From NCBI RefSeq assembly GCF_030717995.2, contig NZ_CP157743.1, positions 3,002,501 through 3,066,500 on the forward strand: a DNA stretch of 64,000 nucleotides, read 5' to 3'. Of this stretch, positions 1,004-28,065 are shown one piece after another (position 1 is the stretch's first letter; every line of letters begins with the position of its first letter). Made by a program: the position numbers and the translations under genes. Origin of the DNA: Methylomarinum sp. Ch1-1 (GTDB lineage: Bacteria; Pseudomonadota; Gammaproteobacteria; Methylococcales; Methylomonadaceae). The notes under the pieces are model-generated. The model worked only from the letters and a program-made list of their open reading frames with translations, was not told the origin of the DNA and made no database searches.

Positions 1004-2762
1004 ATGCGCACCGTCAAGAATCCGCAAATGAGCCTCGGTCAGGTCGATATTGCCGACATCGAGATTAACCTCAAATCCAGAGACGACATCCCGCAACTGC
1101 TGCTAGGGTTGCAGTACATCTATACCACGCCCGAACTGCGCGACCGTGTGTTCGCCATCCTCGAGCAGGTTATTCCCTACCGAAGCGGTCAGGGCCTTAG
1201 CGAAGCAGAGCGTCAGCAACCCGCTGACCCAAGGCGCGGTCGGTCCGGCCTGGAACAATGGAAAATTCTAGTGCTGGGCGTTTTGCGTCTGGGCCTGAAT
1301 ACCGACTACGACCGCATCCATGAACTGGCCAACCACCACAATACCATTCGACAGATGCTGGGCCATAGCGACTGGTGTGACGACACGAAGTATTCTCTCC
1401 AGCGCATCAAAGACAATCTAAGGCTGTTCACCCCGGAACTGTTCGATCAAATCAACCAGGAAGTGGTCAGAGCCGGCCATGCCCTGGTAAAAAAAAGCCA
1501 AACGCTGGGCCAACCGTCCGCAGTGACTCGACTGCCGCCGCGACGGTCGACCACAGCGATAAACTGAGAGGGCGGTGCGATTCCTTTGTGGTCGAAACCG
1601 ACGTCCATTTTCCGACCGACATCAACCTGCTGTATGATGCGATCCGCAAAGCTATTGAAGAGAGTCATACGCTGGCGAAACACCATGACCTGCCGGACTG
1701 GCGCCAATACCGGCACAACATCTGGCGACTCAAACAACAGTACCGAAGAGCTCAACAGCTCAAACGCTCCACCAGCCAGGATGAAAACAAACAAGCCGTA
1801 CGGGAACAAGCCATCCAACAGGCTCATCAGACCTACCTGGACCTGGCGAGCGCCTACCTGGGCAAATCCGAGCGCACCTTAAAACAAGCCCTGGACCGTG
1901 GCGCCCTGGCCGATGAAACGCAGCCGTTGCAATCCTACCAGGCCTATGCCCGCCTGCTGCTGGACCAAATTGAGCGCCGCGTCATACGCAGCGAAACCAT
2001 CCCTCATGCCGAAAAGATCTTCTCCGTGTTTGAACCGCACACCGAATGGATCAGCAAAGGCAAAGCTTCCGCCGCTGAAAATCTTGGAAACGGAGCGCCA
2101 GCGAAGTGAAGATTTTTAGTCCCCGATAGGCGTAGGGCCGATTGTTTTGTCGGAATCGAAGCGAGAGCGAAGGTGGAGACAAAATAAAAGGTCTCCCGAA
2201 ACGCCGTCAAGTCATTTGTGGGAGTGCGACGGAGCCAGCATCGAGTTTACGATGATATGGCGGAGTGGCACGGACGCAGGACGAATCGGGGCCGCCGGAG
2301 GCAATAATCGCCACGTAATTTCTGCCGCTTGCTTGGGCTGGGATGCCCAAAACAAGCTTTCGCAGAAATAGTGGCGCGCTAGTCCTGCTCACGCTCCTTA
2401 CCTACATCCCTGTAGGCAAAGCAGGCGTCCCGGTTGAGTTGGGTTTAAGGGTCTGCGTGATGGAGGACCACCATCGCTTCGTTCTTCACCACCTAGTGAT
2501 GGAAAAGCAAACCGATGACAAAGTCGCCGTCGACATGGTCACCGAAACGCGCCGGCGCTTCCCCGAACTGACCGTGACCAGCTTCGACAAAGGCTTTCAC
2601 AGCCCGGCTAACCAAAAGGAACTGAAAAATCATCTGGAACAGGTGGTTTTGCCCAAAAAAGGCCGACTCAGCGCCGCGGATCAAGCGCGGGAAGGCAGCA
2701 ATGCTTTTAAACAACTACGCCACCAACACTCCGCCGTGGAAATTGTGGGGGCTTCGCTCTAG
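1004..2762 (+). pseudogene. ISNCY-like transposase, frameshifted, interrupted and 3'-truncated
   Basis: Segment 1 (1004 to about 1515) starts MRTVKNPQMSLGQVDIADIE and carries the N-terminal region typical of ISNCY-family transposases (LRDRVFAILEQ, LEQWKILVLGVLRLGLNTDYDRIHEL). A frame change near 1515 moves the reading to the frame that contains LRGRCDSFVVETDVHFPTD and runs to HTEWISKGKA at 2066. A 348-bp insertion with a 9-bp target duplication follows. The reading then resumes at 2415 in GKAGVPVELGLRV and continues through FDKGFHSPANQKEL to HSAVE near 2741, where homology stops short of the usual C terminus. Removing the insertion and one duplicate restores ISKGKAGVPVEL exactly. The gene was therefore damaged at least three separate times and cannot encode active transposase. 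Confidence 0.85.
2067..2414 (+). mobile_element. 348-bp non-coding insertion element, copy A (314-bp core shared with 27,683-27,996)
   Basis: This stretch interrupts the ISNCY-like transposase and is flanked by the direct repeat AGGCAAAGC (2058-2066 and 2414-2422), so it arrived by an insertion that duplicated 9 bp. Positions 2069-2382 recur at 27,683-27,996 on the other strand with a single base difference (C or G near 2099). No convincing ORF or transposase is inside. The core is rich in hairpins: AAAATCTT/AAGATTTT near the left end (2078-2117), GGAGAC/GTCTCC near 2173-2197, and a long right-end stem pairing TTTCTGC with GCAGAAA and GCTTG with CAAGC, enclosing TTGGGC/GCCCAA. The extra 32 bp at the right (2383-2414) contains a CTACA/TGTAG hairpin and is missing in copy B. 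No terminal inverted repeats are evident. Confidence 0.7.
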
Positions 2763-4017: not shown

Positions 4018-5103
4018 TTAAATGGGCGCCAGCGTCTGCGCCAAAGCCATCGACTCGACCGCCGGTATGCGCGTTCGTCCCACCGCCATGACGCCACCAC
4101 AGCACGCACAGCGCATTTGTGGCCGTTGCCGGATAACCGGCAACCATTTTTGGGGATCGAGTTTCTTAAGGTATTGCAAAATCCGGATCGTACCTTTGCT
4201 GTTGGGATGCAGGAAGCCATAGTTTCTGGCTCGGCGAAAACCTTTGGGCAGCACATGCTGGAGCACCCGCCATAAAAAATCGGCGCCGGAGACCGTTTTG
4301 ATTTGCCAGCGTTTCGTTTTACTGTCTTGATACCGGTAAGTGACCTTGCCGTCCCGGCAGGACAGAATGTCCTTTTCCCGGATAACACCGCGATATAGAT
4401 AGCGCCCCAGATACACCAGCGCCTTGTCCCCCGAACCCACCCGCTTGCAGTCAACGACCCATTTGTGAGGCGTCGCCTTGGGCAACGACAGGTTTTCTCG
4501 GGCAAGGCGGGTCAGCATTTTGGCGCGGAAGACTTTCGCCAGTGCCTTGTGATTGAACAGATACTTTCCTGTCTTGGTTCGCCACAGGCGTTTGCATTGA
4601 TCCACAATCGCGGCGGGCATCACGGCATGAATATGGGGATGATAATCCAGTGCGCGGGAATGCGTATGCAGGACCGCAATGACGCCGGGATCCCCATTGA
4701 GCTTCCGGTCATTGCGGCTGAAGGTTTGCAAGGTTTCCCAGACACATTCGAACAGCACGCTGTAAAGCAGCCGTTGATGTCGCCAGGCAAGTGTTCTCAA
4801 CTGTGCCGGCAGCGTAAAGGTGATCATGAAATACTGGGCGGGCACCTGTTTCTGCAGCTGCCGTTCGATCCATTGCTGGCTTTCGTGATGTTGACAATGG
4901 GGGCAGTTGCGGTGGCCACAGGAATGCGGCACGAAGGTCTGATGTTCGCACTCGGTACAATTCACTTGCATGACAGGACTGTGCCGGGTTCGACAGATTT
5001 TCAAGGCCTGCAAAGCCTTTAACTGGCTGGGCAGAATTTGGGACGGGTACTGATTGAGAAAGTCTGCTTCAAACTGATCGATAACTGAAGAAATCGGGAT
5101 CAT
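4018..5103 (-). CDS. IS91-family HUH/Y2 transposase
   Basis: This 361-aa rolling-circle transposase nicks single-stranded DNA. The N-terminal zinc-binding region has CTEC (49-52) and [11 protein letters not shown] (60-70). The HUH metal motif is HPHIH at 155-159, within [11 protein letters not shown]. The tyrosine motif YLGRYLYRG (231-239) has Y231 and Y235 in the Y-x3-Y spacing of two-tyrosine IS91 enzymes. The C terminus has a CACCGG cysteine pair. Length and all catalytic residues are intact, so it looks functional. Its ATG overlaps the stop of the upstream recombinase in ATGA, implying translational coupling. Confidence 0.92.
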
Positions 5104-6007
5104 TTGACGTTCCCCCAGGTCAGGTCGAAAGCATTAATCAACTGATTGATTTGCTGCTCCGAATTCTTTCCAGTGACATCGGTTAAATGGGTGTAACGCG
5201 AAGTGGTCAACAGGCTGACATGGCCCAGGATCTGTTGCAGCTCCACCAAATCGACGCCAGCCTCCAGCAGATGTGTGGCATAACTGTGGCGCAGCGAATG
5301 ACAGGAAATCTTTTTTTTAGCCCCATTCCGTTGACGACCGCCGCCATAGTCGTTTGCACGCCGCCTCTATCGAGAGGTGACTCGGCCATGTGCGCTGCCT
5401 TCAATCCCCGTTTGCGGTTGGGAAAGAGCAAGGTGGGATGCCGATGCAGTTTCCAAAAATGCCGCAGAACCTGCAAGGTATTTAAAGGTAACGGAACTAA
5501 GCGATCCTTGTTACCTTTGGCATTACGAATATGCACGCGCAGACGCTCGGCATCGATATCCCCGACTTGCAATCGGAGTCCTTCACCCAATCGCAAACCC
5601 ATACTGTAAAGCGTGAAAAAGAATACCCGGTAGCTCAACTTACGGGTTGATAGAAACAGCTGTTGTGCCTCAGCGATCGTGACAATATCGGGAATACGAA
5701 CTGTCCTGGGCGGCTTGATCAGTGCAATATCCGTCCAGGGCTTGTTCAACACATGCATATAGAAAAACTTCAAACCATACAGATCCAGCTTGACGGCACT
5801 CCAAGACAGACGCTCCAACAATTCACAAAAATAATCCAGCAACTGTTCCTGGGAAAGATCCTCCAGATTGCCATCGAAATAATCACCGATCCGACGGATA
5901 GCGCGTGAATAGGCATCGATAGTTTTTGGCTGCAGACCTTTAAGTTTTAGATGTTTGCAATGCAGAGCATAATAATGGTTGAATTTCGTATTGTTGGGTG
6001 TCTTCAT
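5100..6007 (-). CDS. Tyrosine recombinase of the IS91-type element, needing a -1 frameshift
   Basis: The first frame (6007 down to about 5318) encodes an N-terminal SAM-like core-binding domain and the first half of the catalytic domain, with Arg139 in [11 protein letters not shown] and Lys167 in [13 protein letters not shown]. At a run of eight A (CTA AAA AAA AGA in the zero frame) the reading must slip back one base. The -1 frame then continues [34 protein letters not shown] and ends at the TGA at 5102-5100. The H-x-x-R, H and nucleophilic Tyr are all beyond the slip. Without slippage the product is a 266-aa protein lacking them. The A_AAA_AAA heptamer sits in the correct frame for programmed -1 frameshifting, though an ordinary indel is also possible. 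Confidence 0.8.
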
Positions 6008-27446: not shown

Positions 27447-28065
27447 TCAGCCGGTGCTTTTATCCCTGCCGGAGGCGGCGACATGAACCGCATCCCTGCC
27501 GGAAACCTTGGCCTCGTACAGGGCCTGATCGGCTCGTTTCAGAAAATCCATCAGCCGCTCGGCTTTGTTTAACTGCGCCACGCCGAAACTTGCCGTCACC
27601 CTGCTCACTCCGTCTATTTGCTCATCGGAGACTAGCTGTCTTATCTTTCCGGCGACCCGCTCCGCTTCCGCTAAATGCGTGTCTAGCGCGCCACTATTTC
27701 TGCGAAAGCTTGTTTTGGGCATCCCAGCCCAAGCAAGCGGCAGAAATTACGTGGCGATTATTGCCTCCGGCGGCCCCGATTCGTCCTGCGTCCGTGCCAC
27801 TCCGCCATATCATCGTAAACTCGATGCTGGCTCCGTCGCACTCCCACAAATGACTTGACGGCGTTTCGGGAGACCTTTTATTTTGTCTCCACCTTCGCTC
27901 TCGCTTCGATTCCGACAAAACAATCGGCCCTACGCCTATCGGGGACTAAAAATCTTCACTTCGCTGCCGCTCCGTTTCCAAGATTTTCAGCGGCGGCAAG
28001 ATGATCATGAACTCGTCGCCTCCCCAACGGGCCAGCAGGTCTACCCTCCTCAGAGCCGCCTTAAA
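27447..28065 (-). pseudogene. GGDEF (diguanylate cyclase) domain fragment interrupted by a mobile element
   Basis: On the reverse strand, residues KAALRRVDLLARWGGDEFMIILP carry the GG(D/E)EF active-site loop (WGGDEF). A 314-bp element follows, and the domain resumes at DTHLAEAERVAGKIRQL, then RVTASFGVAQL and FLKRADQALYEAKVSGRD to the stop at 27,447. Upstream of KAAL the reading loses all similarity, so the sensory part and the first half of the domain are missing. By comparison with other GGDEF domains roughly three residues at the insertion point are also gone. The gene would have made cyclic di-GMP; now it is a relic. Confidence 0.8.
27683..27996 (-). mobile_element. 314-bp non-coding insertion element, copy B
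   Basis: Reverse-complement copy of 2069-2382 with one base difference, inserted within the GGDEF codons between ILP and LDTHLAEAE. Unlike copy A it lacks the 32-bp right extension and shows no clear target duplication. The same right-end hairpin (TTTCTGC...GCAGAAA enclosing TTGGGC/GCCCAA) and left-end AAAATCTT/AAGATTTT hairpin are present. Near identity implies recent movement or gene conversion. Confidence 0.7.

Follow-up and report, generated by a model that had tools for sequence, protein, structure and literature searches.

Methylomarinum sp. Ch1-1 carries a gene-less mobile element of 310 bp, two copies of which lie in the stretch of 64,000 nucleotides analyzed here (the window). The element behaves like a non-autonomous single-strand transposon and fails a defining feature of each transposon or intron family against which it was tested. 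It contains no convincing gene, only short overlapping frames, in agreement with the initial annotation of the sequence, which had found no ORF in the insert.

Both window copies (Table 1) interrupt coding frames, one that of a transposase and the other a GGDEF-type frame. The transposase reads ISKGKA before the insert and GVPVEL after it, as first described, and its last piece gives a weak DDE_Tnp_1 match, below the cut-off, in the profile search. The initial annotation gave the insert 348 bp, treated the flanking 9-mer AGGCAAAGC as a duplication made by the element itself, and reported that excision restores the protein exactly. The 9-mer is present on both sides. However, sister transposases of the same genome (L028 to L030) contain AGGCAAAGC-TTCCGC|TCCTGCTC...CCCTGT-AGGCAAAGC without the 310-bp unit, the full arrangement being AGGCAAAGC-TTCCGC|TCCTGCTCACGCTCCTTACCTACATCCCTGT-AGGCAAAGC, which is a 46-bp repeat that includes the 9-mers. 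The 9-mers therefore belong to this older repeat, and the unit sits exactly between TTCCGC and TCCTG, with 0 bp duplicated and 0 bp lost. Its true size is close to that of the “314-bp core” mentioned in the same annotation. Excision of the 310 bp alone leaves the 46-bp repeat, so that by frame count the transposase frame is still shifted; the restored protein first described corresponds to omission of both the unit and the repeat (356 bp, 2058-2413).

By frame count, the 46-bp repeat with its 9-bp end repeats shifts the transposase frame as well, yet the copies that carry it have multiplied. A related arrangement occurs in a different context at L027. Elsewhere in the window, a Y2 transposase of the IS91 type with a zinc-binding domain adjoins a tyrosine recombinase (4018-5103 and 5207-6007, minus strand), and a fragment of an IS200-type TnpA lies at 330-563 on the plus strand (Y1_Tnp positions 2-60).

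Table 1. Coordinates of the element, its parts, and its surroundings in the window
Feature	Position	Strand	Basis or remark
Mobile element, 310 bp, CGCTG...GCGCTAG	2073-2382	+	Limits from about 23 copies in its own genome and the empty sites L028 to L030
Second element copy, 99.7% identical	27683-27992	-	Inside GGDEF-type frame (named from a reading of translated frames)
Left-flank target tetranucleotide, C-C-G-C (C at -4)	2069-2072	+	
Element's own 3' terminal C-T-A-G, obeying the C-N-N-N rule	2379-2382	+	
Left part of older 46-bp repeat	2058-2072	+	Outside the element; holds the first 9-mer AGGCAAAGC (2058-2066)
Right part of older 46-bp repeat	2383-2413	+	Outside the element
Second 9-mer AGGCAAAGC	2414-2422	+	Outside the element
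Interrupted transposase (insertion host)	1588-2762 (pieces 1588-2066 and 2415-2762)	+	Open reading frames
Hairpin P1, 5' end	2074-2120 (2074-2083 with 2111-2120)	+	Helix 1; scored cells all paired; 4 double-change pairs
Closing helix P2 around the internal domain (P3, P4, P5)	2121-2290 (2121-2127 with 2285-2290)	+	
3' hairpin P8	2309-2376 (foot 2309-2314 with 2371-2376)	+	Helices 10 and 11

The element is not confined to the two copies in the window. A search of its own genome gave 35 matches that were grouped into about 23 elements, comprising 17 uninterrupted copies, 4 split by about 2 kb, and 2 partial ones; what is left of the 35 consists of distant parts of split copies or of the 46-bp repeat on its own. 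Identity to the query is 99 to 100% for most chromosomal copies, 75 to 88% for three, and 91 to 92% for the copies on contig C3. Relatives were found in 151 of the 237 genomes searched across the family (its own included), in 27 of its 29 genera and in 122 of its 173 high-quality genomes. In a class-wide sample of 274 genomes, 14 have matches, some of which span a short stretch only: the genome of origin, one more from its family, a third from its order, and 11 from outside the order.

The genomes identified by label in this work include those of the methanotrophic gill symbiont of Bathymodiolus japonicus (G146), Methylotuvimicrobium buryatense 5G (G159), Methylobacter tundripaludum SV96 (G048), and Methylomonas sp. 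AM2-LC (G132). About 360 first-look candidates came from G270, which belongs to another family and is complete at 3.45 Mb; the ends and the target rule are the same there (C at -4 in 12 of 14 inspected copies). A further 71 came from G093, a draft genome that is 93% complete. In the gill symbiont, 400 kb, sampled partly because it contained matches, yielded 144 elements or pieces, of which 114 are full and which fall into four subfamilies, and the contiguous first 260 kb of its contig C1 holds 89, or approximately one per 2.9 kb. M. buryatense 5G has three identical copies, which indicates recent activity of the element. The phage records searched gave no match, and the four matches among plasmid records are all to plasmids of gammaproteobacterial methanotrophs; five stretches in IMG/VR contain one exact pattern of the element. 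A diverged relative (L325:1360-1680) lies between genes that, by eye, resemble part of a short-Argonaute operon. Some short pieces, such as L121:18882-18936, end just after hairpin P1 and TCCCCGA, an ending that resembles the 3' tail of the full element, and these copies could be solo-hairpin forms.

Comparison of the copies and of their empty sites fixed the ends and showed target duplication to be nearly always absent. Across 389 distinct full insertions with 389 distinct flank pairs, the base at -4 is C in 380 (A in 5, T in 3, and G in 1), so that the cut falls 3 nt downstream of a C. Few insertions have C at -5 (18/389) or G at -1 (12/389), and the other target positions are loose. Beyond the last bases of the element, the right flank has no comparable signal in the 41 copies of the gill symbiont that were profiled. 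If a single strand is cut a single time, a target specified only on its left side is what one expects.

Empty sites were sought by joining the flanks of each insertion and matching them against all sequence collected, which gave 139 candidates; those with at least 95% identity across the junction and no gap were taken as stringent, and 20 insertions with gapped matches only were left out of the count. At offsets of up to +8 there are 113 stringent sites, one of them with a junction that can be read in more than one way, and the element ends in C-N-N-N at all 113. At offsets from -12 to +25 there are 114, mostly from the gill symbiont, where the targets themselves are repeats, and 112 of these have neither duplication nor loss within the few-base uncertainty of the consensus ends. 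The exceptions have direct repeats of 6 bp (CTCAAT, at L120:14345, plus strand) and 21 bp (L276:6369). The 113 endings are CCTG (46), CCGA (31), CCGC (14), CCAA (12), CCGT (3), CTTG (3), and four that occur once each, among them CAAT, which belongs to the insertion with the 6-bp repeat. Subfamilies A and D have a tail of consecutive C, and there the final two bases vary even among copies with identical cores; the cut 3 nt after a C may slip along this tail. The occurrence of the same C-N-N-N rule at the target and at the end of the element points to one cutting enzyme.

The strong hairpins reported initially are borne out, as the insert folds better than shuffled sequences on both strands (z of -2.6 and -3.0), and the fold is conserved by compensatory changes. 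A consensus structure obtained with RNAalifold from 25 diverse elements of 21 genomes (alignment A1) has 57 pairs over the whole length of the element, with 96.5% of cells paired and double-sided changes in 31 of the 57 pairs. Covariation is 0.345, compared with 0.135 for shuffled alignments, none of 500 of which reached 0.345, in a test that is inflated by relatedness; it is at most 0.083 when the structure is slid along the alignment, a control that is flattering since the structure came from the same alignment. An earlier fold from 21 sequences in a poorer alignment had weaker support. A further alignment, A2, includes a row without an element (L121:18779-19038, wrong coordinates) and contributed to none of the counts. 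Compensatory switches in P2 are plain by eye (CCCCGAT/ATCGGGG and CCCCAGA/TCTGGGG), and others are found in subfamilies outside A1 (CCCTGA/TCAGGG and CTCCAG/CTGGAG).

On the plus strand, G.U pairs exceed A.C pairs by 152 to 18 overall, by 35 to 18 without the pairs that are mostly G.U, and by 48 to 13 among the double-change pairs. Selection thus appears to work on the plus strand of the element in single-stranded form, and covariation does not separate RNA from single-stranded DNA. A search of Rfam 15 gave sub-threshold matches only, among them JA03 (E value of 0.12), with no match to a group I or group II intron or to HEARO; overall, no Rfam family, intron, or compared insertion sequence accounts for the element.

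The orientation of the element agrees with the local GC skew for 105 of 144 pieces in the gill symbiont, 22 of 36 in M. buryatense 5G, and 13 of 18 in the window genome, although these counts are non-independent and that of M. buryatense is weak when taken alone. The favored sense places the plus strand of the element on the G-rich strand, which is usually the template of lagging-strand synthesis. On the strongly strand-biased replicon G000:C3 (245,923 bp), the minus strand carries all five element matches and all IscB hits, and the plus strand all 15 listed TnpB hits. The 400 kb of the gill symbiont contain 16 pieces with only the 5' part and 13 with only the 3' part; there is no surplus of 5'-truncated copies, which is unlike target-primed reverse transcription.

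Among the enzyme classes tested, Y1 alone occurs in every carrier. Each of the 16 genomes searched for it has Y1_Tnp, including G097, G098, and G011, which had no element match in the family-wide search, and the carriers compared have no one Y1 clade in common. A Y1/RAYT gene adjoins the element in G000 (at 22 bp), G093, and G270; such adjacency is occasional, not general, and was absent at the four Y1 loci of M. buryatense 5G. IS200 TnpA genes were rejected as a source of the element, the flanks of seven having been inspected by eye and none having its ends. Several carriers contain group II introns with RVT_1, and the reverse transcriptase domain RVT_1 (PF00078) was not detected in G270 and G093, both of which are rich in the element. 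Y2_Tnp was not detected in 10 of 13 genomes, 7 of the 10 bearing the element, which argues against the IS91 Y2 enzyme of the window as the mover. TnpB exceeded the cut-off in just 2 of 14 genomes and IscB (PF14239) in 3 of 14, and both were set aside as movers on this ground.

A helper gene was also sought among the ORFs within 1.5 kb of elements at 186 loci, which were clustered. The largest cluster (92 loci) is probably a chain of frames that lie within the element; those that follow contain 6, 6, 6, 4, 4, 4, and then 3 loci, several of them from one genome. No recurring neighbor clearly stood out at the 186 loci, and a partner may lie among the small clusters. Copies split by 2 to 3.4 kb were inspected as candidate autonomous parents. 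In four split copies of the window genome, the inserts instead carry RVT_1 genes and, by eye, group II intron-like ends, and in a split copy of G372 the insert is an IS21-like pair according to a reading of its ORFs. The RVT_1 inserts of the window genome (L012 to L014 and L020/L023) are found in four element copies at two positions within the element, and four reverse-transcriptase genes of G159:C1 (near 723, 2259, 2529, and 3170 kb) are next to copies whose first base corresponds to position 17 or 176 of the element. Group II intron-like inserts seem to land preferentially in this element.

Our tentative preference, at a little short of even confidence, is for a non-autonomous element of about 260 to 310 nt that moves as a folded single strand by means of an HUH enzyme, most probably Y1/TnpA-like, acting in trans. 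The folded plus strand would serve as transposition intermediate, entering or leaving the template of lagging-strand synthesis; the HUH enzyme would read the terminal hairpins P1 and P8 and could be supplied by a RAYT-like Y1 gene at another genomic locus, and the internal domain may be a further recognition structure or a strand-protecting fold. A Y1 enzyme fits the single-strand, duplication-free pattern, although this is not proof. Against it, no Y1 gene is tied to the element and Y1 is also found in the element-free genomes; P1 starts 2 nt from the cut, which leaves no space for a 5' guide; and the conserved internal domain exceeds the needs of end recognition. The weak agreement with GC skew in M. 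buryatense 5G, the orientation of the C3 elements opposite to the listed TnpB genes, and the two empty sites with direct repeats also count against it.

It is possible, if rather doubtful, that the same folded ends are instead used for DNA transposition by another, unrecognized enzyme, such as a tyrosine recombinase, a replication initiator or relaxase, or a member of an uncharacterized family. None of the enzyme families tested could be linked to the element, no neighboring gene recurs clearly, and the C-N-N-N rule is unlike any rule with which it was compared (those of RAYT and of IS200/IS605). However, this is an argument purely by exclusion, and HUH enzymes are known for insertions of this kind, with 0 bp duplicated and a target specified by the left flank alone.

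Movement as RNA, in which a transcript would be copied by a reverse transcriptase in trans or would be reverse-spliced and then copied, in the manner of a bacterial SINE, appears improbable. An RNA-grade fold that tolerates G.U on one strand, the lack of duplication, as with group II introns, the variable last two bases of subfamilies A and D, and the group II introns with RVT_1 in several carriers are consistent with such a route. However, truncation has no 5' bias, no group I or II intron of Rfam matches, the target and the element end share one rule, and RVT_1 is unmatched in the two element-rich genomes, although G093 is a draft and a reverse transcriptase may have been lost after the movement. 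The suggestion in the initial annotation of a structured RNA that moves is so far unsupported, as the fold cannot tell RNA from single-stranded DNA.

An ordinary MITE, namely, an internally deleted insertion sequence with a DDE transposase, would likewise be small, non-coding, and present in many copies, but we consider this very unlikely. No terminal inverted repeats (at least 12 long) were found around the insertion (1900-2600), all but two of the 114 empty sites lack a duplication, the IS200-type TnpA genes examined have other flanks, the split copies hold RVT_1 inserts or the IS21-like pair and no autonomous parent, and the internal fold is conserved across the diverse sequences of A1. The initial description of a small non-coding mobile element unlike the standard MITE, with no evident terminal inverted repeats, is therefore upheld. 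A fixed structured RNA gene duplicated with its flanks, or an effect of assembly or chance, merits practically no credence, for although an RNA gene would explain the conserved fold, the distinct flank pairs and the 112 exact empty sites from independently assembled genomes refute it.

The preferred reading, a folded single strand moved by an HUH enzyme, invites comparison with known systems, each of which the element resembles in part. Non-autonomous derivatives of IS200/IS605 (PATEs and others) also insert without duplication and have terminal hairpins, a strand bias, a target specified on the left flank, and an element end that resembles the target. However, IS200/IS605 targets follow a fixed tetranucleotide rule, with sites of 4 to 5 nt, whereas a single base is nearly fixed here; furthermore, the hairpin lies 2 nt from the left cut, and the local IS200-type TnpA genes have flanks of their own. 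HEARO, the omega-RNA of IscB, likewise resembles a structured RNA and inserts 3' of a short motif with no duplication, but Rfam gave no HEARO match and IscB is infrequent among the genomes tested. ORF-less group II introns share the structured strand, the absence of duplication, and the preference for the lagging strand; the element lacks their GUGYG...AY ends, an Rfam intron match, and a long target pairing, and such introns insert into it instead. IS91 and Helitron-like elements are alike in their 3' hairpin and their single-strand, duplication-free mechanism, but Y2_Tnp was undetected in seven carriers and no fixed tetranucleotide target is used here. REP and REPIN sequences with their RAYT (TnpA_REP) are likewise non-coding and high-copy, with a folded single strand and a trans-acting helper, a parallel being the presence of Y1 in all the genomes tested. 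However, the element has 260 to 310 nt and a multi-helix fold, whereas REP sequences have 20 to 40 bp according to PMC3733652. RAYT cuts at CT or CA, chosen by GTAG, according to PMC8266576, and relative to that description the element has no GTAG 5' of P1 (CG-CTG stands at the very end), is cut after C-N-N-N, and has no consistent RAYT adjacency.

No paper found in our literature search seemed to describe the 310-bp element. We regard as conceivable, but hardly probable at present, that it represents a new class of gene-less element, in which an ornate fold of about 300 nt is selected for movement and insertion by the C-N-N-N rule proceeds by a mechanism that no known transposon class uses, the mobile form being a self-moving RNA, or single-stranded DNA handled by an undescribed enzyme, and which has spread through the Gammaproteobacteria, reaching a density of about one copy per 3 kb in one of their genomes.

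The element would be a widespread and very abundant one, with an RNA-grade fold not found in Rfam 15, and the question it poses is which enzyme moves it and in which form, DNA or RNA. A helper other than Y1, or a mobile form made of RNA, would make it categorically new. The relative with identical copies in M. buryatense 5G makes movement testable in a cultured methanotroph, and the element would also provide a naturally occurring DNA cassette whose target rule asks for one base.
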